Below are positions 4,132-22,091 of a DNA stretch of 22,091 nucleotides, in pieces. This DNA comes from a virus. Where the stretch lies: IMG/VR virus record IMGVR_UViG_3300036800_000087, positions 1 through 22,091 of that record. One strand, written 5' to 3'. The notes beneath the pieces are model-generated. The model did not search any database and was not told the origin of the DNA. It saw only the letters and a program-made list of their open reading frames with translations. The translations under genes were made by a program, and so were the position numbers. Each line of letters opens with the position of its first letter. Positions within the stretch are counted from its first letter, which is position 1.

Positions 4132-5625
4132 CTACCTTCGACGGAACGACGCCAGGGCGGCCGGGTCGATGCGCATGGGCGCGTTCTGACCGATCATGCT
4201 GAAGGCGCGCGACGAAGCGTCGACCTGATCGTCCTTCATCCCGTTGGGGAAGCTGGCCAGTTCGTCGCGGTAGGCGTGGTTCCAGTCGCCCCGCAGCAGC
4301 GCGACGTTGCCGACGTTCACCTGGCTGGCGAAGGGTGCGGCGCGCGTCGCCTTGTCGCCGCTCTCCGGGGAGCTGTCGACGCGATAGCCGGCCAGCTTGC
4401 GGGTCAGGTAGAGCACCTGCGTCTTGCCCGCCTGGCCGGGGTCTTGCGGCAGGCCGATGCGCACGATGCGCCCGTCGTCCGCGGCTGTCGTCACGATCAG
4501 CGCCTCGACGTCCTCCGGACCCGCCTGGCGTCGGCGCACGTCGCCCACGACGATCCTGCCCGATGGCGCGCGGCCCATCTTCACGCCAGCCGTGTAGTCT
4601 GGGTTTCGCGTGCCGGTCTGTTTGGTCGCCGCGAGGTCCCAGCCACGCGCCCAAACGGTTCCGGTCGGCGCCTCGTCGATCACCTCGATCTGGCCGACCT
4701 TGAAGAGCGCGCCCTCCGCCGCGACCGGCGTCTGCTGATAGAGGGCGGCCCAGTCCCGCATCGCCCCGGCGGCGGTGAATTCGGCGTGCACCGACTGCAG
4801 CTCAGCGCCGTACGGATAGGCCGGATCGTCCGACCACAGCCATTCGCCGGGCTCACGCCCGAGCGGATCCTCCTCGCCTGCGATCGCCGGGATAGAGACG
4901 ACGCGCCAAAGGCCCGGCTGTCGCTCGAGTAGCCGCCCGCCCAGGTCGTCCATGTGCCATCGGGTCATGATCACGACGATAGCGGCGGAGGGCTTGAGGC
5001 GGGTCCGCAGGTCGGACGTGAACCACGCCCACTGCGACTCCCGCACCGTCTCGCTCTCCGCGTCGGCGCGCGAGCGGGTCGGATCGTCGATCAGGGCGAG
5101 GTCGGCACGCTGGCCGGCGATGGCGGCGCCCACGCCCGCGGCCCGGTAGGTCGACCCGTTCGAGACGTCCCACAGCTCGACGTTCTCGCGACCCAAGCCA
5201 ATGCTCAGCAGGTCATGATTGTCCCGCACCAGACCCATGGCCGCGCGGCTGAACTGTTCGGCCAGCGTCCCGGTGTTCGAGGCTCCGATGATGTTCGCTC
5301 GCGGGCGCCTGGCCATGTACCAGCCGGGGAAGAGCTTGCTTCCGTAGGTCGATTTCGCCGACCCCGGAGGCAGGTTCACCATCAAGCGTCTAGTCTTGCC
5401 GTCGGCTACGGCCTGCAGCTCGCGGCAGAGCAACCGGTGATGCGGCGCAGGCTTCTGGCCGAAGGGGGCCAGCGCCTCGGTGCAGTAGGCCAGGAAATCG
5501 TTCTGAACGTAGGCGCGGAAGTCCGCCGCCAGGGCTTCAAGCTCAGGACCCTTGAGGTTCCTGACAAACCTCTCCCTCAGGTTCGGGGGGAGCAAGGCGA
5601 GCGACTCGCTCAATGAGGGTTGCAC
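4132..5625 (-). CDS. terL: Terminase large subunit (ATPase and nuclease)
   Basis: 497 residues from a GTG at 5625. This start is preferred because GGAGG lies 6 nt upstream; an ATG at 5655 in the same frame would add ten residues. TerL drives DNA into the procapsid with ATP and cuts the concatemer. The ATPase half has Walker A (LPPGSAKST, residues 85-93) and Walker B with the catalytic acidic pair (LALIDD, about 176-181), plus the coupling motif region MTRWHMDD. The nuclease half shows acidic residues of an RNase H fold: GWDLAATKQ, LPQDPGQAGK and the C-terminal MKDDQVDA. This is the Terminase_6/6C arrangement. The gene overlaps the small terminase gene by 83 bp in another frame, more than the 4-bp overlaps usual here. 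Confidence 0.93.
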   Translation of the reverse strand: MQPSLSESLALLPPNLRERFVRNLKGPELEALAADFRAYVQNDFLAYCTEALAPFGQKPAPHHRLLCRELQAVADGKTRRLMVNLPPGSAKSTYGSKLFPGWYMARRPRANIIGASNTGTLAEQFSRAAMGLVRDNHDLLSIGLGRENVELWDVSNGSTYRAAGVGAAIAGQRADLALIDDPTRSRADAESETVRESQWAWFTSDLRTRLKPSAAIVVIMTRWHMDDLGGRLLERQPGLWRVVSIPAIAGEEDPLGREPGEWLWSDDPAYPYGAELQSVHAEFTAAGAMRDWAALYQQTPVAAEGALFKVGQIEVIDEAPTGTVWARGWDLAATKQTGTRNPDYTAGVKMGRAPSGRIVVGDVRRRQAGPEDVEALIVTTAADDGRIVRIGLPQDPGQAGKTQVLYLTRKLAGYRVDSSPESGDKATRAAPFASQVNVGNVALLRGDWNHAYRDELASFPNGMKDDQVDASSRAFSMIGQNAPMRIDPAALASFRRR

Positions 5626-6112
5626 GCACCGCCTCCAGTTGGATCGGGCCGCCATCGGCTCCGGTCAGCTCGACACGCGAAGCCTCGCCGTACTTCTTCG
5701 GCGCGAGTTTGCCCGCCATCCATTTGCGCGTCTCCACCCGAAGCTTCGAGCGCGCCACGAACTCGGCATCCATCATCGGGCCATGCTTGCCCATGATCAC
5801 ATCGCCGCTCGTGTCGTCCGCGATCTCCAGCGCCTCGTCGACCAGCAAATCAGCTTGGCGTTCCCGCGCACGGGCGTACTGCTCCCGAAATTCGGGGAAT
5901 TGGTCCAACCAGCGCATGACCGTCGTCTCGCTTGGCAGGTCGGCGCGGTCTTTGAGTTGGCGAGCCAGGCCGACGTTCGACATGGCGATCAGCTCGCACA
6001 CCTCCGTCGCCACCTTGGTCGAATAGGTCAGCGGTCGCCCGACCTTGCGCCGCTTCGGGGCCTTCACCGTGGCGGAGCCGTACCTCTCGACGAGCGCGCT
6101 GATGTCGCTCAC
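5543..6112 (-). CDS. terS: Terminase small subunit
   Basis: 189 residues from a GTG at 6112 that overlaps the stop of the preceding gene as GTGA. TerS recognises the phage packaging site and loads the large subunit. After a basic N-terminus (KAPKRRKVGRPL, about 18-29) comes a helix-turn-helix: SNVGLARQLKDRADLPSETT and then VMRWLDQFPEFREQYARARE, ending near residue 85. It is followed by the helical oligomerisation region (RQADLLVDEALEIADD) and a segment rich in Lys/Arg (RSKLRVETRKWMAGKLAPKKYG) typical of this family. Position immediately before terL agrees. Identification is by motif order and context. Confidence 0.88.
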   Translation of the reverse strand: MSDISALVERYGSATVKAPKRRKVGRPLTYSTKVATEVCELIAMSNVGLARQLKDRADLPSETTVMRWLDQFPEFREQYARARERQADLLVDEALEIADDTSGDVIMGKHGPMMDAEFVARSKLRVETRKWMAGKLAPKKYGEASRVELTGADGGPIQLEAVRATLIERVARLAPPEPEGEVCQEPQGS

Positions 6113-6495
6113 GCCGCGACAAGCTCCGGCTTGAGGCAGTGCTCGACGAGGGCGATGCCCTTCGCGGTGATCGAGTAGCCGAGCGTGGGGTGCGTGCGGA
6201 TCACATCGTCGCCGTGGGCGTCGCGGATGTGACAGACCATGATGACGATGGCCTTCCGGCTCTCCGTCTCGCAGTCGGTCGTGTCGATCAGCTGGGCCAC
6301 GGAGAGCACGCGGCCGCGAGCACGGTAGAGCGCCAACAACAGACGCGTGTGCTTGGGCGTGAGACGCAGCTTGTCCGCGATCCGGGCCCGCTCATGGGAG
6401 GACAGGGAAAAGCCGACCTCGCTCTCCAGCCAAAGAATGCGGTCGATCAGATCCTCTCGCCCGTAGGCAGCGAAGCGCCCGTCAACGGAGGCCAT
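6109..6495 (-). CDS. OmpR/PhoB-type winged-helix protein
   Basis: 128 residues from the ATG at 6495, chosen because GGAG lies 7 nt upstream; an in-frame TTG at 6501 is less likely. The first 40 or so residues are helical. Residues 45-112 look like the C-terminal DNA-binding domain of OmpR/PhoB response regulators: LTPKHTRLLLALYRARGRVL, then a recognition helix region (KAIVIMVCHIRDAHG) and the wing (VIRTHPTLGYSIT). There is no receiver domain, so this is a stand-alone winged helix. It is encoded directly before the small terminase gene (4-bp overlap) and overlaps the ParB-like gene by 14 bp. It may regulate late genes or bind the packaging site. The role is inference. Confidence 0.75.
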   Translation of the reverse strand: MASVDGRFAAYGREDLIDRILWLESEVGFSLSSHERARIADKLRLTPKHTRLLLALYRARGRVLSVAQLIDTTDCETESRKAIVIMVCHIRDAHGDDVIRTHPTLGYSITAKGIALVEHCLKPELVAA

Positions 6496-7276
6496 CGGCA
6501 AACTCCACCAGCCAGGACGCCACGTCGCGAACCTTCTTGGCGTCGATCATCAGTCGCAGCGCCTTGGGCATTTCCCGCAGCGCGTCCTGAGGAGACGGGA
6601 GGTGCGCCACCGTGGCGATCATGCCTTCGACAGCATGGATGATCGGGCGATGCCGTTCGATCAGCGCGACGCGCTTGGCGTCCTCCTCGCTCTGAGGCTC
6701 GACATCCTCCGGATCGTTACGGCTTCCGAAGCCGCCGCCTCCGCGACCGATGTTCTCGGTGCGCATCGTCGCCTCGGTCCCGTGCTTGGTCAGGTAGGTC
6801 CGCTCACTGGCGTTTCCGCCAGTGGCAGGCCGCATCGATCCGACCAGCTCGTGATTCACACGGCAGGCCCTGGCGATCTCACGGTCCGACCAGCGCGCCC
6901 ATTCCTCGTCGTCGAGCAGCCGCTTCACGGCGCGACGCTTGTCCGCGTTGGTGCGCTTCAGCCCGTGGGCCGAATTCGCGCCGACCGAGAAGAGGATGGC
7001 GTCGCGCCATGTCCCCTGGCGGACATCGCACTGGACGAAGGTCCGGCCGATCTGCCTGGCCGCTGAGACGCGGTGAAAGCCGTCCGCAAGCCAGTGATCG
7101 GTCCCGTCGTAGAACACGACCATGGGCGGGAACTTGTCGCCCCGCTCCATCGCCTCGGCATATTCAGCGACCACGTCCTCGTCGATGAGCGCTCTGGGCT
7201 GAGTGCCGCCGTTGAGACGCAAGTCCTCGACCGGGACCGACGTGACCTTGGCTTCTTCGTCGATGGCTGAACGCAC
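6482..7276 (-). CDS. ParB/sulfiredoxin-fold protein
   Basis: 264 residues from a GTG at 7276 with a GGGAG Shine-Dalgarno about 9 nt upstream. Residues 10-80 form a ParB N-terminal domain: VPVEDLRLNGGTQPR, then PPMVVFYDGTDHWLADGFHR, where the G-x-H-R box is the nucleotide-binding loop of the ParB/Srx fold. Residues 107-150 (NADKRRAVKRLLDDEEWARW, then SDREIARACRVNHELVGSM) look like the KorB/ParB helix-turn-helix. The C-terminus is helical. Family members are CTP-dependent DNA-binding proteins, nucleases or regulators. In phages they often sit near terminase and methyltransferase genes with no partition partner, and I see no ParA here. A hairpin at 7283-7304 would hide the ribosome binding site. 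Confidence 0.85.
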   Translation of the reverse strand: MRSAIDEEAKVTSVPVEDLRLNGGTQPRALIDEDVVAEYAEAMERGDKFPPMVVFYDGTDHWLADGFHRVSAARQIGRTFVQCDVRQGTWRDAILFSVGANSAHGLKRTNADKRRAVKRLLDDEEWARWSDREIARACRVNHELVGSMRPATGGNASERTYLTKHGTEATMRTENIGRGGGGFGSRNDPEDVEPQSEEDAKRVALIERHRPIIHAVEGMIATVAHLPSPQDALREMPKALRLMIDAKKVRDVASWLVEFADGLR

Positions 7277-7282
7277 GAAATC

Positions 7283-7304
7283 GGGCTCCCACTTTCGAGG
7301 GAGC
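7283..7304 (-). promoter_or_regulatory. Hairpin covering the ribosome binding site of the ParB-like gene
   Basis: Minus strand: GGCTCCC, 8-nt loop, GGGAGCC, a perfect 7-bp stem. The Shine-Dalgarno GGGAG of the ParB-like gene is inside the 3' arm, 9 nt before its GTG. If the hairpin forms in the mRNA, it would block initiation unless melted, bound or bypassed. Confidence 0.5.
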
Positions 7305-7398
7305 CGACCAGACGATGGGCAGTGCGCGTCCGGATGTGGACGTTGATTTGGCCAAGCGTCGCTATGCGGCGGGGCGTCGCAGGGATATGGGGGCGCGC

Positions 7399-7797
7399 AT
7401 GAACTGGTTCGGCCACAACAGCGGCAATCGCGTGCCGACCGTTGCCGCCGATCCGGATGACCCTCGCCTCAAGCCTCCGCCTGCGAAGCCTCGCAAGCGC
7501 GGCGTTGCGCCAGAAACCTACGCTCAAGAGACGACCGACTACCGTGCGGCGTGGCGCGCATGGACGGCTGAGGTCGCAGCCTACCAGCGTCAACGGGCGA
7601 TGCGCCTTGGCGTGACGAGCTACGTCTGGAGGTCCGCCCTGCCCGGCATCTGCAGCGTCGCGGCTCGCAACAACGGCCGAACCTTCAGCTTCGACGATCC
7701 GCCTCCCGACGGTCACCCCGGCGAGGGCGCCTGCGATCTCGACTGGTGCAAGGGCTGCATCATGCGCTCGATCATTCGGGGCGTGGAGCGTCGCTAG
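7399..7797 (+). CDS. Stand-alone MuF C-terminal-like protein
   Basis: 132 residues from the ATG at 7399; ATGs at 7387 and 7315 are in frame but have poorer context. It starts MNWFGHNSGN. Residues from about 87 (YVWRSALPGICSVAARNN, then GRTFSFDDPPPDGHPGEG, then CDLDWCKGC) match the end of phage Mu gpF/SPP1 gp7 head-morphogenesis proteins. There the pattern is W-R-S ... R-x-x-H-x-x-x-x-G-x-x-F ... DDPP-x-G-H-P-G-E ... C-x-C. The long helical front domain of MuF proteins is absent. It is on the plus strand amid leftward genes, divergent from the ParB-like gene and convergent with the small gene at 7794-7986; the two stop codons share the palindrome GCTAGC. The role is unknown. Confidence 0.65.
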   Translation: MNWFGHNSGNRVPTVAADPDDPRLKPPPAKPRKRGVAPETYAQETTDYRAAWRAWTAEVAAYQRQRAMRLGVTSYVWRSALPGICSVAARNNGRTFSFDDPPPDGHPGEGACDLDWCKGCIMRSIIRGVERR

Positions 7798-7986
7798 CGG
7801 CCGTCCAGATAGGCGATGGCTTCGGGGCAACCGTCGTCAGCCCAGACGTTGACCAGATCGAGCGCGAACTCGACGGCCGTGCGTCCGGCCAAGCGTTGCT
7901 TTGCAGCGAAGACGGCGAGAGGGACGCTGATCTCCTTGAACCGTTCGATGAGCCACGGCCACTGATCGCCGTCAGACAGCCGGCAT
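7794..7986 (-). pseudogene. Small unknown gene, apparently frameshifted at its start
   Basis: A well-formed reading frame ends at TAG 7796-7794 and encodes a compact helical protein (DQWPWLIERFKEIS, then VPLAVFAAKQRLAGRTAVEF, then VNVWADDGCPEAIAYLDGR). Its only good start is the ATG at 7986, which has GAGGAG 7 nt upstream, but that ATG is in another frame and stops after four codons (Met-Pro-Ala-Val). Removing one base from the CCGGC just after the ATG would give Met-Pro-Leu-Ser-Asp-Gly-Asp joined to the long frame, about 63 residues. The sequence therefore holds a real frameshift, an assembly error, or a CTG start at 7979. I do not recognise the family. Confidence 0.5.
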
Positions 7987-8061
7987 CAGTGATCTCCTCG
8001 GTTGGCGCCTTTGCGCGGGACCATATCCCTCCCCCTCCGTTCCATACCCTCCCCATCTTCC

Positions 8062-8245
8062 CTATGACGACCGAGACAACCGTATATAGGTATTGTTTTG
8101 TAAGGGGTTTCTGAACAGGCTTAAGCTTTCGGTTGTCTCGGTTGTCAAAACGTCGCAGGGCAATTGTGGCAATATATTCGGAGTTTTCCGCCACAATTCC
8201 GCGTTTGTCGCATGACAACCGATCAGAAGCGGAGCCGGTTGTCAT
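8062..8245. other. Octamer/inverted-repeat cluster: candidate replication origin or operator
   Basis: Five exact copies of GACAACCG lie here: 8075-8082 and 8214-8221 on the plus strand, and 8130-8137, 8139-8146 and 8236-8243 on the minus strand. They form nested inverted repeats. A 17-bp arm (8066-8082 against 8130-8146, one mismatch) flanks 47 bp that include an A/T-rich core (TATATAGGTATTGTTTTG). ATGACAACCG at 8212-8221 pairs with CGGTTGTCAT at 8236-8245. A separate 9-bp repeat, AATTGTGGC/GCCACAATT, lies at 8162-8170 and 8190-8198. The last octamer overlaps the stop codon of the primase-helicase gene. Iteron-like sites beside a replication gene suggest an origin; an operator for the small leftward gene is the alternative. 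Confidence 0.55.
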
Positions 8246-10563
8246 AGGGGCCAGTACCACTTCGTCGGCGTTCCGCCGGACGGGGGGGTCGTCTGCCCCA
8301 TGGCGATCAGTTCCGCATCGAGATGGCTCTTCAGGATGTCGTCGAGGTCGCGGCCCTTCATCTTCGTGCCGAGCGCCCGGAGGAGGTCGCGCTTGCTGAC
8401 GCGGCCAAGCTCTCTGATCTTGCGCAGGACGCGCTTGGCCTCCGCCTCGTGGGGGTTGTCGGCCATGTAGTCGGACACCTGCGCCACCATGGTCCGGGTG
8501 CTCCACATGGCCAGATCGCGGCCCCAGACCATGTCTTCGGTCGTGATCGCGGGCGCGTCGGCGGACAGCCCGATGGCGCGGATCGTGGCCAAGCGCTGGG
8601 CCATCTCCGCGGTGCGCATGTAATATTCCCGGTGCTCGGTTCGGTCGTCGAGCGCTTCGGCTAGGTCGTCGTAGATGCGCTGCGCCCGCTCGTCGAACCA
8701 GGGGACGATGACTGCTGGCGCGCCTGGACGGCCGTTCCCCATGGTCGCCGCGGCCAATGTGTTGATCGGCTGATGCACACGGGCAAGGTATGTGAGGATC
8801 CGATCCGGAACCGTCTCGACGTCGAGCTTTGGCGTGACGCGGCGCACCTTGGCGTTGCTGGCGATGAGCATGAACCGGTTGAGGAAGCCGTTCGATATGG
8901 CCTCGCCGTTCAGCGCTCGATAGAACTCCTCGGGGGTCGACGAGCCGTAGATCGACAGCGCCGGGCCATGGATGACCTCGCTGTGCGAGTGGGCGTATTC
9001 GGGGGAGATGTAGGTCTTGAAGGCCTTGCCCCACATGGTGCGCAGGGCGTCCGAAATGGCCTTCTCGTGGCCGCTCGAGCCCTTGGCGAAAACGCGAGCC
9101 AGGAAGCCGCCGAACTCGTCCTGCACGCAGAGGGTGAGGGGCTGACGGACCACGCGATTGATGACGGCGGAGAAGCTCATGAACTGCTGGCCGCCTAGCA
9201 GGCGCTCCATACCGCCGTCGGTCATGATCTTGATCGCCATCTCTTGCGGATGGTCCTTGCCCGCTCCCGTCGGCGCGAGCGCCAGCACATAAAGGTGCGT
9301 CCCGCTCCGGGTGGGGGTCGCGTACTTCCGACCGGCGGCCGTACCCAGAATCGTTAGCGCTGCGCCTAGACTTAAGCCGCGCTGGGGGCGGGGCGCGGTC
9401 CCGACGATCCAGTCGACGATCTCCCCCACGAGGCCGGGGACGCGCGTCAGGACGTCAGGAAGCTCTTCGAACGGGTGCCCTTGATGAACTGGCTCCGCCT
9501 CAATGACGACGCCGTCCGCGTCATGCTCGACGCCGCCGGTGGTCAGGCGCGGCTGCAGCGCGATCACCACGGCGCTCTCGTTCAGCCCGAGCCGGTCGCG
9601 CAGCCATGACGTCGCCTCGGCCTGCTCGACGCCGCGGACGGCCATCACGAGGTCGATGGCGCTGTATCCCTGATCGGTCCCCCAGTCCTTGATGCCGGCG
9701 GGATGAATGGCGAGGTGGAGGTTGCGCTTCTCCAGCGGCTTCCCCGCGAGGCTCGGCCGGAACGAGGCGACGGACCGGTAGCGATCGCCGGAGCGGGTGA
9801 GGCCGTAGAGGTCCAGCTGCGGAACCCAGGCGTCAAGGTTGGCCAGCGCCGCCCGCTTGGTCTCCGCGAAGAAGTCGTCTTCGTCGACCGCCTCCGGCGC
9901 CGCGCGCGCCACCTTCAGCCCGTGCGTCTCCTTCTCCGCCGCCGGGTTCCAGCCCAGCGTCTCCAGCGTCTCTTCGAGCTCGGTCAGGTGGTCGGCGGTG
10001 AAGATCGGCAGATCGACCGCGGCGACCGGACCGTCGAGCCAGATGTAGGGCGCGCCGGTGTCCGGGTGGATAGAAGGCGGCACGACGGTCTGGCGCGTGT
10101 CGAAGCCGGTCAGCACGTCGACCAGGCGGATGCGGTCGCTGGCGCGGTTGTACGGCTTGGAGGTGATCGACTTGTCGGCCAGGTAGAACCGCGTCTCCCC
10201 CTTCGCCCCCTTCTTGCGCATGGGCGTGCGCGGCAGGCTGCGAACGATGGTCTCCGCGTCGTCGAAGTCGGGGGCGTCGACGTCGATGCCGATCAGGTAA
10301 AGGCCGGGAGCGACGGGGGAGCCGAGCACGACGCCGATGTTCGAGGCCGGGAAGTTGGACATCCACAGCTTGAGCTCAAACTGCGTCGGGGCCCGGTCAC
10401 GGAACCGCTGCCACTGGCCCATGCCGCGCCAAGCGCCCGAACGAAACTCGCCCGGCCGCTTCTCCTTCGGCATGATCGGCAGCGGGTGATAGCCCAGCGC
10501 GATCAGCTCGGGCGCGCTCGCGGCGAAGGGCGAGGCGGATACTGTGGCCCCCAGTGCGGCCAT
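8242..10563 (-). CDS. Primase-polymerase/helicase fusion replication protein
   Basis: 773 residues. The N-terminal third is a bifunctional primase-polymerase (prim-pol, archaeo-eukaryotic primase fold): GYHPLPIMPKEKRPGEF (24-40), IGVVLGSPVAPGLYLIGIDV (76-95) with catalytic Asp94 and Asp96, and PPSIHPDTGAPYIW (162-175). A middle segment (YRSVASFRPSLAGKPLEKRN, about 262-281, then GIKDWGTDQGYSAIDLVMA) links to a DUF3987-like ATPase/helicase with Walker A APTGAGKDH at 430-438 and a Walker-B-like region LTLCVQDEFGGF. The C-terminus carries a helical DNA-binding-like segment (RVSKRDLLRALGTKMKGRD). It probably primes and unwinds phage DNA. It begins one base after the stop of the preceding gene. The repeat cluster at its 3' end is a plausible origin. 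Confidence 0.87.
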   Translation of the reverse strand: MAALGATVSASPFAASAPELIALGYHPLPIMPKEKRPGEFRSGAWRGMGQWQRFRDRAPTQFELKLWMSNFPASNIGVVLGSPVAPGLYLIGIDVDAPDFDDAETIVRSLPRTPMRKKGAKGETRFYLADKSITSKPYNRASDRIRLVDVLTGFDTRQTVVPPSIHPDTGAPYIWLDGPVAAVDLPIFTADHLTELEETLETLGWNPAAEKETHGLKVARAAPEAVDEDDFFAETKRAALANLDAWVPQLDLYGLTRSGDRYRSVASFRPSLAGKPLEKRNLHLAIHPAGIKDWGTDQGYSAIDLVMAVRGVEQAEATSWLRDRLGLNESAVVIALQPRLTTGGVEHDADGVVIEAEPVHQGHPFEELPDVLTRVPGLVGEIVDWIVGTAPRPQRGLSLGAALTILGTAAGRKYATPTRSGTHLYVLALAPTGAGKDHPQEMAIKIMTDGGMERLLGGQQFMSFSAVINRVVRQPLTLCVQDEFGGFLARVFAKGSSGHEKAISDALRTMWGKAFKTYISPEYAHSHSEVIHGPALSIYGSSTPEEFYRALNGEAISNGFLNRFMLIASNAKVRRVTPKLDVETVPDRILTYLARVHQPINTLAAATMGNGRPGAPAVIVPWFDERAQRIYDDLAEALDDRTEHREYYMRTAEMAQRLATIRAIGLSADAPAITTEDMVWGRDLAMWSTRTMVAQVSDYMADNPHEAEAKRVLRKIRELGRVSKRDLLRALGTKMKGRDLDDILKSHLDAELIAMGQTTPPSGGTPTKWYWPL

Positions 10564-12457: not shown

Positions 12458-12687
12458 GCCGCCTTGTCCTCTTCGTCTTCGTCGTCCCCCTCTTCTTCCT
12501 CGTCTTCGAGCTGGAACCGCAGCTCGTCGATCTCGTCGATCTGGTCCCTCAGCGCGGTCGTGGCAGGGCGACCGTAGCGTCGCGCCCAGGCGGCGAGCTT
12601 GCCCACGTCATCGTGGCAGAGGTCGAGGTCGAGTAGCGCGACGTCGACGACGTTCTCGTTCGTCAGATCATCGTCGATGACACTCAT
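12454..12687 (-). CDS. Small acidic-tailed protein
   Basis: 77 residues. A leading segment (MSVIDDDLTNENVVDVALLD) is followed by HDDVGKLAAWARRYGRPATT, a helical LRDQIDEIDELRFQLEDEEE, and a run of Asp and Glu to the end. The ATG at 12687 overlaps the methyltransferase stop as ATGA, and its own stop overlaps the helicase start the same way, so the reading frame is well fixed by coupling. The strongly acidic tail suggests binding to a basic partner or DNA mimicry; I do not recognise a family. The central Gly-Arg-Pro-Ala-Thr-Thr region could be a small DNA-binding or docking helix pair. Function unknown. Confidence 0.75.
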   Translation of the reverse strand: MSVIDDDLTNENVVDVALLDLDLCHDDVGKLAAWARRYGRPATTALRDQIDEIDELRFQLEDEEEEGDDEDEEDKAA

Positions 12688-13622
12688 GACGCGAGCGCCA
12701 TCAGAGAGGGCGTCGCCGCCTCGGCCTCGGCCTCGCGCAGGTACTTCAGCGACTGACGGTAGTAACTTTCCTTCAGCTCGGTCCCGATGAACTTCCGGCC
12801 GGCGCGGATCGCAGCGTAGCCCTCGGAGCCGATGCCCATGAAGGGCGAGAAGACGACGTCGCCAGGGTTCGACCACAGCCGCACGGCCCGGTCGGTGATG
12901 TCGAGCGGCATCGGGCAGAGGTGCTTTTCCGCCTGATCGTCGCGCGCCACCTTGGCGTTGAGCACGTCCGTCTCGCGCGTCGAGGTCCAGATGGGCGAGG
13001 CCCACTCCTGCCAGATGTCGAGCGGGAAGGACTCGGGCTCGTGCAGGACCGGAGGCGTCGCCTCCATGTCGGGCCCCCACTTGCGGAAGACGATCAGGTA
13101 TTCCGGCAGGCCGACCCGGTTGCGCGCGGCGTCGGTGCGGAAATTCTTGTAGAGCAGGCCGTCGGGCTTGGCCTTCTGCATCTCCTTCACCGGGCAGCGC
13201 CAGATCGTGACGCGCGAGTGGTAGGCCCAGCCGCCCACGACGCCCGCTCGCTGCGCCGCCTCCTTGCCCGCCTCGACGTGGGCGCGAACGCACTCGCCGG
13301 TGAAGTCCCGGATGCCGCGCGAGCCGTCGGCGCTGGCGTTCGAGTAGTAGACCAAGTCCTTGACGTGGATGGCGCTGAGCCGCCCCGGCTTCGTCACCCG
13401 CCACTTCTCTGCGATCAGGTGCCGGTAGGCGGCGAAGAACTCGTCGTCGCCGGCGACGTTGCCCATGTCGCGTTCCGAGTCGGAGTAAATATACAGGCTG
13501 GAAAACGGCGGCGAGTAGACGCTGAAGTCGACGGAGTTCGACGGCATTTGAGCGGCGAACTCGACGCAGTCCACGTTGTAGGCCGCCCAGCGCTCGCCCT
13601 GCGCCTGGTCAAAGACGTTCAT
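12684..13622 (-). CDS. DNA N4/N6 methyltransferase (beta-type motif order)
   Basis: 312 residues from the ATG at 13622, which overlaps the SNF2-type helicase stop as ATGA; the longer open frame upstream is noise. Catalytic motif IV is SPPF (37-40), near the N-terminus. The AdoMet-binding motif I lies near the C-terminus (PGDVVFSPFMGIGSEG, about 253-268), followed by ELKESYY (282-288). Motif IV before motif I is the circularly permuted beta class. SPPF favours N4-cytosine, though N6-adenine is possible. The variable segment between (MSRVTIWRCPV-like region and NFRTDAARNRVGLPEYLIVF) would hold target recognition. No cognate nuclease is present, so it is probably an orphan phage methylase for host-restriction evasion or regulation. 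Confidence 0.9.
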   Translation of the reverse strand: MNVFDQAQGERWAAYNVDCVEFAAQMPSNSVDFSVYSPPFSSLYIYSDSERDMGNVAGDDEFFAAYRHLIAEKWRVTKPGRLSAIHVKDLVYYSNASADGSRGIRDFTGECVRAHVEAGKEAAQRAGVVGGWAYHSRVTIWRCPVKEMQKAKPDGLLYKNFRTDAARNRVGLPEYLIVFRKWGPDMEATPPVLHEPESFPLDIWQEWASPIWTSTRETDVLNAKVARDDQAEKHLCPMPLDITDRAVRLWSNPGDVVFSPFMGIGSEGYAAIRAGRKFIGTELKESYYRQSLKYLREAEAEAATPSLMALAS

Positions 13623-15031
13623 GCTGCACCTTTGATGAAGGGCGGGAATTCCGCCCGTTGCTGAGGGGTGTAGGGATCGAGGACGCCGCGCCGGCTGATC
13701 GCCCGCTTCATGGCGGCGGTCATCTGCGACTTCATCTCGTCGTGGTCGCCGCTCTTGCGGCTGATCACGTTCCAGATCGCCTCTTCGGTATCGGCGCAGG
13801 CGACGTGGACGTGGACCGGCCGCTTCTGGCCGAACCGCCAGCACCGGCGCACGGCCTGGTAGAAGCTCTCGTAGCTGAACGAGAGGCCCACGAAGGCCTG
13901 TCGCGCGCAGTGCTGCCAGTTGAGGCCGTAGCCGCAGACGCTCGGCTTGCTGATCAGGATTCGCGTCTGACCGCTGGCGAAGGCGGCGAGGCGGTTCTCT
14001 TTCTGAATGATCGAGTGCGAGCCGCGCACCTCCACGGCGTCGGGGATGCGGGCCATGAGGGCGTCGGCCTCGTAGTCGGTATCGCACCACACGACCCAGG
14101 CTTCGCCCGGCTCCAGCGCCACGACGCGCGCGATCTCGTCCGCCCGCATTTCGATGGTCAGGCGCTTCTCGCGGTGGATGGATGTCGCGGAGGTCTCAGG
14201 GATGCGGAAGAGCCGCGCCTGCCCGTCCCGCTCCTCGCCCGTGTCCGTCGAGCGATCGGCGGCCAGGACGTGCCGCTGCAGGACGAGTTCGGGAAGCGCG
14301 AACCCTTCGTCGCTGAATCCGAGGTCAGACGGCTTGGAGACCGCGCGCGACCAGCTGGCGACCCAGTTCCAGAAGTCGAGGATGGCCGGGTCTTTGAGCC
14401 GGTAGCGGCCCATGTTGGTCTGATCGGCGATGAACCAGCGCGAGAGCATTTCGCTCGACGCCATCGCGCCCAGGAAGGCGGAGTGCTGGCCCAGCTCCAT
14501 GTGGTCGTTCGGAGCGGGCGTGGCGGTGCAGGCGAGCCGGAAGGGCGTGCGGTCGAAGGAGGAGATCAGCGCCCGCGTCGTCTTGCCGGTGAACGACTTG
14601 AGGATCGACGACTCGTCGAGGATGACGCCGCCGAAGAGAGCGGGGTCGAAGCGGTCGAGCCGGTCGTAGTTGGTGATGTAGACCTTCGATCCGCGCACCT
14701 GGGCGGCCTCGCGGATCGCCTCGGCGTCGATGCTCCGGGCGTGCGCCTCGCCCTCGTGCTGCTTTGCGCACGCCAGCGGCGCGAGCATCAGCACAGGCTT
14801 GTTCGTGTGCTCGACGACGACGCGGCCCCATTCCAGCGCGCAGAAGGTCTTGCCCAGGCCCGTATCGAGGAAGAGGGCGGCGGAGCCGGCGGCGAGCGCG
14901 AACTCCGTCACCGCCTCCTGGTGCGGGAACATCGCGCCGTTGAGCGCCGGGACCTTGGCGAGCCCGTGCGGCTGGAACTGCACCCGCTTGGCCGCGATCT
15001 GGGCGTGGTAGCTGGAGAGGTCAGCGGTCAT
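13619..15031 (-). CDS. SNF2-type superfamily 2 helicase
   Basis: 470 residues. Motif I DTGLGKT (56-62), motif II LDES (138-141, DExx with Ser), motif III TATPAPND (169-176), and motif VI near the C-terminus (YQAVRRCWRFGQKRPVHVHV), with the Q-x-x-R-R-x-x-R-x-G-Q pattern of SNF2 ATPases. The N-terminal HQEAVTEFAL is the Q-motif region. Phage relatives are commonly encoded next to a DNA methyltransferase, as here (4-bp overlap with the following methyltransferase gene). They probably remodel or unwind phage DNA during replication or recombination. The start overlaps the preceding stop as ATGA, which fixes it. Confidence 0.9.
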   Translation of the reverse strand: MTADLSSYHAQIAAKRVQFQPHGLAKVPALNGAMFPHQEAVTEFALAAGSAALFLDTGLGKTFCALEWGRVVVEHTNKPVLMLAPLACAKQHEGEAHARSIDAEAIREAAQVRGSKVYITNYDRLDRFDPALFGGVILDESSILKSFTGKTTRALISSFDRTPFRLACTATPAPNDHMELGQHSAFLGAMASSEMLSRWFIADQTNMGRYRLKDPAILDFWNWVASWSRAVSKPSDLGFSDEGFALPELVLQRHVLAADRSTDTGEERDGQARLFRIPETSATSIHREKRLTIEMRADEIARVVALEPGEAWVVWCDTDYEADALMARIPDAVEVRGSHSIIQKENRLAAFASGQTRILISKPSVCGYGLNWQHCARQAFVGLSFSYESFYQAVRRCWRFGQKRPVHVHVACADTEEAIWNVISRKSGDHDEMKSQMTAAMKRAISRRGVLDPYTPQQRAEFPPFIKGAA

Positions 15032-18656: not shown

Positions 18657-19163
18657 CTATGCGACCTCCTCTTCCGGTTGCGGACCTTCGATGAACCAGC
18701 CGCCCAACGGTCCGGAGGAGGCAGGCTGGAAGCGCAGGACCATGGGTCCGGCGGATTGGATGGCGATGCGCATCAGGCCGTCGCGCGGCGGGTTCCACGC
18801 GATCGCGATGCCCGCGACGTGGCGGTCGTCGTCGATGACCTTGTGCTTGACCAAGAGGTCGAGCGTGGCCTTCACGCGGTTGTCGATGTCGGCCATCGCG
18901 CTCGTGCGCTCGATGCCGATGATGATCAGCACCGGGCCGTGGACGGTTTCCGGGTTCTGGAGCCGCAGCTTCCACCCGGCGTTCGCGAGCCAGGTGTCAT
19001 AGAGCGGCGTGCGCACCCTCCCCTTGCCTGGCACGTTCTTGAAGAGCGTGTTGGCGGACGGCGGAGCGGGGAGCGTCAGGAAGGTGGCGGACGGTTCGGG
19101 GGCGGTCGAAGCCGCCCCCTCCCCTGCGCACCCCGGCGCCTGGTCGGCTCCCGGTGTCTTCAC
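18657..19163 (-). CDS. RusA-type Holliday junction resolvase
   Basis: 168 residues from a GTG at 19163 that overlaps the preceding stop as GTGA. RusA is a dimeric endonuclease that cuts four-way junctions. The opening LTLPAPPSANTLFKNVPGKG (about 29-48) and the core MADIDNRVKATLDLLVKHKV, with Asp92, Asp94 and Asn95, plus the DDD at 111-113, match the RusA catalytic pattern (D-x-D-N ... K ... D-x-L ... D-D). The N-terminal 28 residues are low-complexity, and a downstream start is possible. The role here would be resolving or debranching phage DNA before packaging. Confidence 0.87.
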   Translation of the reverse strand: MKTPGADQAPGCAGEGAASTAPEPSATFLTLPAPPSANTLFKNVPGKGRVRTPLYDTWLANAGWKLRLQNPETVHGPVLIIIGIERTSAMADIDNRVKATLDLLVKHKVIDDDRHVAGIAIAWNPPRDGLMRIAIQSAGPMVLRFQPASSGPLGGWFIEGPQPEEEVA

Positions 19164-21261: not shown

Positions 21262-22091
21262 ATGGCTACTCGCGCCAAGAAGACGGCTGCGCCCGAAGCG
21301 ACCGCTGAGGTCGTCTACGAGTACGGCATTCGCACGTGGGAAGCCGGGGGCAAGTCGCATGGCGACTTCGCCTGGGACCTGCGGCCCGGCGCCCGCAACG
21401 AGGCTCCAGATTGGAAGCCGACGAAGGAGTGCGGCTACGGCCTCCACGCCAACCGGTTCGGCATGGAAGATTGGTCGCTCCTGGGCGACATCAGCGGCGT
21501 GAAGCGGGGCGGCCGCGTCCTGGGCGTCGTGCGCTGGGATAGCGCCCTCGCGATCGATCTGGACGGCAAGCACAAGGCCCCCTGGATGGAGGTCGTGCTC
21601 ACTACTGAGACGGCCGATCTGGCCTCTGTGCTGGCGGCTATCTCTCGCCATCGCAACGATCATCTCTTCACCCTGGCCGAGCGCCTTGCGAAGCAAAAGA
21701 AAACGCTGGCGACGACGGGCGAGGGCTCCGCTGCGGCGACGACGGGCAACCGGTCCGCTGCGGCGACGACGGGCTACGGCTCCGCTGCGGCGACGACGGG
21801 CAACCGGTCCGCTGCGGCGACGACGGGCTACGGCTCCGCTGCGGCGACGACGGGCTACGGCTCCGCTGCGGCGACGACGGGCGAGGGCTCCGCTGCGGCG
21901 ACGACGGGCTACGGCTCCGCTGCGGCGACGACGGGCTACGGCTCCGCTGCGGCGACGACGGGCAACCGGTCCGCTGCGGCGACGACGGGCTACGGCTCCG
22001 CTGCGGCGACGACGGGCTACGGCTCCGCTGCGGCGACGACGGGCTACGGCTCCGCTGCGGCGACGACGGGCTACGGCTCCGCTGCGGCGAC
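21262..22091 (+). CDS. SAAATTG-repeat protein (3' part beyond the window)
   Basis: An open frame with 276 codons visible and no stop. After a Lys/Ala-rich start (MATRAKKTAAPEATAEVV) comes a globular domain of about 130 residues with the features GIRTWEAGGKSHGDFAWDLR, ECGYGLHANRFGMEDWSLLG and WMEVVLTT. It is followed by a helical linker (LASVLAAISRHRNDHLFTLA). From residue 153 it is pure 9-residue repeats, G-x-x-S-A-A-A-T-T, with x-x being Tyr-Gly, Asn-Arg or Glu-Gly. Such N-domain plus repeat proteins occur in phages and prophages; the repeats likely fold as a beta-solenoid. Function is unknown; binding or anti-host roles are guesses. An AAGAGGGG Shine-Dalgarno sits rather far upstream (10-11 nt). 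Confidence 0.8.
   Translation, partial: MATRAKKTAAPEATAEVVYEYGIRTWEAGGKSHGDFAWDLRPGARNEAPDWKPTKECGYGLHANRFGMEDWSLLGDISGVKRGGRVLGVVRWDSALAIDLDGKHKAPWMEVVLTTETADLASVLAAISRHRNDHLFTLAERLAKQKKTLATTGEGSAAATTGNRSAAATTGYGSAAATTGNRSAAATTGYGSAAATTGYGSAAATTGEGSAAATTGYGSAAATTGYGSAAATTGNRSAAATTGYGSAAATTGYGSAAATTGYGSAAATTGYGSAAA
21718..22091 (+). repeat. Tandem 27-bp coding repeat, at least 14 units
   Basis: Units start at 21718 and every 27 bp after; the 14th is cut by the window end. Within a unit, the 18 bases encoding Ala-Ala-Ala-Thr-Thr-Gly are the same throughout. Only the two residues after Gly change, in the order EG, NR, YG, NR, YG, YG, EG, YG, YG, NR, then four YG. Identity at the DNA level, including synonymous sites, indicates recent expansion by slippage or recombination. 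Confidence 0.95.

Follow-up and report, generated by a model that had tools for sequence, protein, structure and literature searches.

A cluster of short repeats lying directly behind a primase-helicase gene is probably an iteron-type replication origin of a tailed phage, with the primase-helicase as its initiator. The window in which it lies is an entire virus contig record of 22,091 bases. The cluster itself is confirmed as real and non-random. A preliminary description of this DNA had suggested a phage origin recognized by its own initiator, and among the readings considered this is the one that comparison of related loci supports best: the position of the cluster recurs, its GC content is low, the arrays are opposed, the motif is specific to each lineage, and the winged helix of the initiator and the repeats have been replaced together. 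The group-wide pattern, with reader and site apparently exchanged as a cassette, is the more interesting part of the result.

The repeat cluster and its gene neighborhood

Five exact copies of the octamer GACAACCG, at 8075(+), 8130(-), 8139(-), 8214(+) and 8236(-), fall within 169 bp, in agreement with the five in about 170 bp reported in the preliminary description, and a sixth copy with one mismatch, GACGACCG, stands beside them at 8066(+). When the whole record was scanned, the sole exact copy outside the cluster was at 18877(-). The total of six compares with 0.83 expected and was reached in none of 100 shuffles. Within 300 bp past the primase stop, matching 8-mer pairs number 28 against 1.7 expected (z 18).

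The sites are arranged in inverted repeats (Table 1). The longest has arms of 18 nt with one mismatch (8065-8082/8130-8147), where 17 bp had been described; the 10-nt exact repeat (8212-8221/8236-8245) and the 9-nt AATTGTGGC/GCCACAATT repeat (8162-8170/8190-8198) are as described. These repeats had been called nested, but in the single-strand fold, which is well beyond that of shuffled sequences (z = -6.0), three hairpins lie side by side. The last octamer of the cluster overlaps the primase stop codon. An A/T-rich core separates two inverted site pairs, as had been noted for this otherwise GC-rich phage; GC content is 0.483 over 8066-8245 against 0.676 in the window, and every one of the lowest-GC 180-bp windows in the record falls at the cluster. 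A short sequence repeated several times where noncoding DNA adjoins the initiator gene, and an A/T-rich segment (34% GC) inside the array, are features of iteron origins. GC skew, which had been proposed as a further check, was of no help in the window.

Table 1. Coordinates of the repeat cluster, its neighboring genes and the block replaced between two related loci.
Feature	Position	Strand	Remarks
Tandem site pair GACGACCGA-GACAACCG	8066..8082	+	9-bp spacing; first copy with one mismatch
A/T-rich core, 34% GC, 47 bp, starting TATATAGG	8083..8129		Candidate unwinding element (putative role)
Second tandem site pair GACAACCGA-GACAACCG, reverse orientation	8130..8146	-	18-nt arms with 8065-8082
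AATTGTGGC/GCCACAATT inverted repeat, TATATT in loop	8162..8198	.	Repeat search and fold
Third site pair (8214-8221 +, 8236-8243 -)	8212..8245	.	10-bp inverted repeat over primase stop codon
AEP Prim-Pol + MCM-like AAA+ (DUF3987) + C-terminal winged helix, 773 aa	8242..10563	-	Pfam and predicted structure
C-terminal winged-helix coding, residues 704-773	8245..8454	-	Proposed repeat reader, from the predicted model
Possible small leftward gene, downstream of cluster	7794..8024	-	Frame broken by in-frame TGA after 12 codons
ParB-like protein gene	6482..7276	-	phrog_1033; considered as binder, not favored
OmpR-type winged-helix protein	6109-6501		Family match
Replaced block	L097:6679-7442 and L101:8223-8653		Covers primase winged helix and repeat cluster

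The genes of the record run mostly leftward. A Sak4-like recombinase, a Cas4-like exonuclease, helicases, a DNA methyltransferase and the primase-helicase are followed by the gap that holds the cluster, and then by the ParB-like protein, the OmpR-type winged-helix protein, the small and large terminase and the portal. The small frame next to the cluster reads MVPRKGANRGDH-stop-CRLSDGDQWPWLIERFKE... and is otherwise open apart from this single TGA; possible readings are a disrupted gene, an error of sequencing and a pair of overlapping starts (TGATG). It gave no family match above the cut-off and none in phages, and a DNA similarity search of the phage collection with the cluster region returned no match. 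Elsewhere in the record, the helicase and methyltransferase frames at 12684-15031 (-) overlap, and each matches parts of the long phrog_16/phrog_62 helicase families, which suggests a split or rearranged helicase-methyltransferase. At the right end (21708-22091), a 27-bp unit is repeated in tandem in 14 near-perfect copies (93% matches), within a reading frame that matches phrog_18079, a phage protein family of unknown function.

The proposed initiator

The primase-helicase has Pfam matches to Prim-Pol (PF09250) and DUF3987, the latter a predicted helicase (Kazlauskas et al., PMC5862659). The same authors predicted that the C-terminal winged helices of such primases may read the origin. An AlphaFold2 model built from 56 sequences has a pLDDT of 88.8 and a pTM of 0.58, the latter value leaving the relative placement of the domains uncertain. 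In this predicted model, the fold of residues 375-699 resembles that of MCM helicases (best Z 19.2, 3.2 Å over 260 residues), and residues 704-773 form a winged helix with many fold matches (best Z 11.1). Together, these predictions would place a primase, a ring helicase and a DNA-binding domain in one chain, and the DNA-binding domain is modeled as separate from the helicase, as in iteron initiators. A PDB sequence search with the primase found no relative. The winged helix of P4 alpha is absent among the fold matches listed for the C-terminal domain, which has no bearing either way.

The arrangement recurs in related loci

Protein searches yielded 80 viral and 3 genome loci related to this one, in addition to named phages; for most of them, 6 kb of flank were covered. 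Many of the best relatives have an A/T-rich noncoding stretch directly after the primase stop that carries 4-11 copies of a word of 7-10 bp. We scored this in 54 non-redundant loci by the number of matching 8-mer pairs relative to dinucleotide-shuffled sequence, with a threshold of z>5. A repeat cluster within 300 bp past the primase stop, in most cases with an A/T-rich core, was found in 26 of the 54, an automated count in which two doubtful-looking clusters are retained, that of L057 (coding-like GCC repeats) and that of L131. In 17 of these loci the cluster is the strongest window of the whole locus, against 0.62 expected. By a different measure, a 9-mer family within 600 bp beats all 25 shuffles in 35 of 77 loci, with motifs that differ between lineages.

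What recurs is the arrangement and not the word. A search for the octamer itself in relatives, as the preliminary description had proposed, found that GACAACCG is not conserved, and the idea of one word common to the group was rejected. The closest relative (L056, 50%) has the word CTCTTCAC, which leaves the present record as the only one seen to carry the exact GACAACCG sites; Rhizobium and Sinorhizobium phages have TTTGGAATT, and other lineages have TTGCAACAG, GAGCGTGC, ACGAACTGT, AACCCGTAG, TTGGGAATT and CCGATTAT, among others. To count the octamer's absence from close relatives against an origin, as had been suggested, would therefore have misled.

A particularly clear form of the arrangement comes from the cultured Achromobacter phage phiAxp-1 (L150, NC_029033), in which nine copies of CCGAAAAC, four one way and five opposite, occupy the 250 bp after the primase (4411-4651; z 64). 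The annotation has no feature in this interval, and the description of the phage makes no mention of a replication origin. Copies in other loci, too, tend to lie in opposed arrays: orientations form 92 runs where 110 are expected (p 0.0006, a test that includes phiAxp-1 as the one locus entered by hand), and both orientations are present in 27 of 30 loci, while some clusters (L105, L113) consist of direct repeats only. In two relatives with complete genomes, phages AP-16-3 and RHph_TM3_3_14B, no other 250 bp of the genome are as low in GC as the cluster; as in the window, GC skew does not help there, with no turn at the cluster.

The pattern has exceptions. About half of the loci have no significant cluster within 300 bp of the primase stop. 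In four loci (L089, L097, L120 and L143) an array lies 0.3-0.5 kb downstream of the primase, and candidate arrays are found elsewhere in others, upstream in L115 and L144 and at +1.5 kb in L116. Presence of the winged helix alone does not predict a cluster, as several loci with an intact C-terminus have none nearby, and none was found downstream of the primase in Prim-Pol relatives that include a Septimatrevirus, an Iggyvirus, Erwinia AH03 and Vibrio 1.005.

Winged helix and repeats are replaced together in a pair of related loci

The key pair for linking the repeats to the primase-helicase is that of L097 and L101, two loci which are 90-95% identical in DNA over more than 9 kb except for a single unrelated block (Table 1). 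The block begins 199 nt (L097) or 184 nt (L101) before the primase stop and ends 566 or 248 nt after it; beyond, identity is again 92%. Protein identity is 48% in the winged helix and 98% in the remainder of the primase, and the motifs differ as well, with 11 copies of TCCGATTAT in L097 and five of CCGAAAACC in L101. A third locus, L089 (about 74% DNA identity), has the L097 type of winged helix (77%) and the same motif, and its DNA between primase and array does not align with that of L097. The corresponding interval has also been replaced between L137 and L138, a second pair, whose words are still partly alike.

Replacement of a cassette moves any neighboring DNA too, so joint replacement alone is no proof of recognition. 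It could be neutral linkage; the comparison of L089 with L097 argues against this, in one case only. The winged helices are 62-99% identical in all six listed pairs with near-identical motifs (similarity 0.88-0.96), and every pair with winged helices more than 76% identical shares a motif. When the motifs of 30 loci were compared in every pairing with the identity of their winged helices, a Mantel test gave a null result (rho 0.05, p 0.16); the words of distant pairs are unlike whatever the protein identity, so that only close pairs are informative. In the informative cases (L097/L101 and L089), winged helix and motif seem to travel together.

These observations raise a broader possibility, which we advance tentatively and regard as somewhat less than an even chance: that this is a large undescribed group of tailed phages with exchangeable origin cassettes, in which the last ~65 amino acids of the initiator and the repeats are replaced as a unit and near-identical phages gain different origin specificities. 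If such exchange takes place, it would perhaps avoid interference between co-infecting relatives, satellites or origin-targeting defenses.

Proposed origin function and alternative explanations

From the predicted domains and by analogy with P4 alpha, SaPI Rep and pRN1 ORF904, a course of initiation can be suggested. The C-terminal winged helix of the primase-helicase would bind the GACAACCG copies, and the opposed tandem pairs flanking the 47-bp A/T-rich core may load two helicase rings face to face. The MCM-like AAA+ domain would then melt the core, and the Prim-Pol domain would lay the first primers on the exposed strands.

Other proteins encoded near the cluster might bind it instead, and the preliminary description had named an operator for the small leftward gene and a ParB-like binding site. 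A phage repressor or activator acting at the repeats could control the small leftward unit downstream of the primase: the cluster separates the primase stop from the next leftward frame, operators typically contain palindromic pairs, an OmpR-type winged-helix protein is encoded nearby, and some initiators are autoregulated at sites that overlap the origin. We nevertheless consider such control an unlikely account of the cluster. A promoter scan found no sigma-70-like promoter there, an internal stop codon disrupts the small frame, the genes downstream are unrelated between most lineages that keep the cluster, and in the key pair L097/L101 the motif changes along with the primase winged helix. 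The complete genomes of AP-16-3 and RHph_TM3_3_14B bear on both suggestions. They keep the arrangement and share the primase, helicase, methyltransferase, exonuclease and Sak4 genes with the record, but contain no detectable match to the small frame, the OmpR-type protein or the ParB-like protein, which weakens the operator and the ParB readings alike. If the ParB-like protein, whose gene is 1 kb away, were the binder, the cluster could be a centromere-like (parS) site or one related to packaging. This would fit the clustering of short repeats, typical of such sites, and the terminase genes that come next; it seems highly improbable, given also that loci found through the ParB-like protein have no homologue of the primase in their 5-kb flanks. 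With these other candidate binders unmatched in the two genomes and the downstream genes unrelated between most lineages, the primase-helicase is the constant partner in the loci examined, mostly with 6-kb flanks.

It could also be that the hairpins matter and not the repeated word, the cluster being either a large stem-loop of the kind put forward for pRN1 or a set of transcription terminators. The region folds far better than shuffled sequences, the 18-nt stem and 47-nt loop resemble the 21-nt stem and 58-nt loop of pRN1 (PMC4234260), and hairpins occur in many relatives, with fold z<-3 in 10 of 24 clustered loci against 0 of 162 coding controls. Yet hairpins arise automatically from inverted sites, 14 of the 24 clustered loci miss this fold threshold, making the repeated words the more regular feature, and some clusters are direct repeats only. 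A terminator scan found no T-run terminator at the cluster, and we judge a purely structural element to be very unlikely. Loktanella phage pCB2051-A (L017) has two very long imperfect inverted repeats (7285-7430 and 7524-7657; arms of 41 nt at 93% and 56 nt at 79%) within the 500 bp of noncoding DNA that follow its primase gene, with a fold z of -11.8; these are closer to the pRN1 stem-loop type.

Significance and comparison with known systems

Few tailed phages have mapped origins. The literature we searched, outside which most subscription journals lie, yielded no paper on the origins of phages with this primase. If an iteron-type origin is the right reading, the origin could be located from sequence, just past the primase gene, in many phages with this type of primase, cultured or not. 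Winged helices paired with their motifs would then offer natural material for reading how such domains select DNA. Cassette exchange would suggest selection on origin identity, a timely subject given phage satellites and defense systems.

By analogy, the present system may work like those of SaPI Rep/ori, P4 alpha/ori and the pRN1 origin. SaPI provides an initiator helicase whose C-terminal DNA-binding domain reads short iterons directly downstream of rep (PMC7581432, citing Ubeda 2007), and Cch2 of SCCmec binds repeats downstream of its operon (PMC7581432). The SaPI primase is a separate protein, whereas here an AEP Prim-Pol is fused to an MCM-like AAA+ domain, in tailed phages. P4 alpha likewise joins a primase and a helicase to a C-terminal winged helix that binds origin repeats (PMC4234260). 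Its primase differs, being of the TOPRIM type, whereas the one here is an AEP Prim-Pol (PF09250). The P4 ori and crr lie apart, not simply behind the alpha gene.

The plasmid pRN1 has its essential origin just 3' of the gene for a Prim-Pol/helicase/winged-helix protein (PMC4234260). The same order of Prim-Pol, ring helicase and C-terminal winged helix is predicted here. An origin of the pRN1 type was proposed also for phage BIP-1/BPP-1, the pRN1 authors having pointed out that the replication gene of BIP-1 is followed by a stem-loop like that of the plasmid (PMC4234260). In pRN1 the origin sequence is the least conserved part of the neighborhood while its structure persists (PMC4234260), and in the present phages the arrangement is kept and the sequence is not. 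A large stem-loop (18-nt arms, 47 nt, z -6.0) also lies 3' of the corresponding gene here; pRN1, in contrast, has one 100-nt stem-loop and no iterons (PMC4234260), and its helicase is described as SF3, whereas the fold predicted here is MCM-like. As a family, the present system would be set apart by its chain of Prim-Pol and MCM-like domains and by its place in tailed phages.
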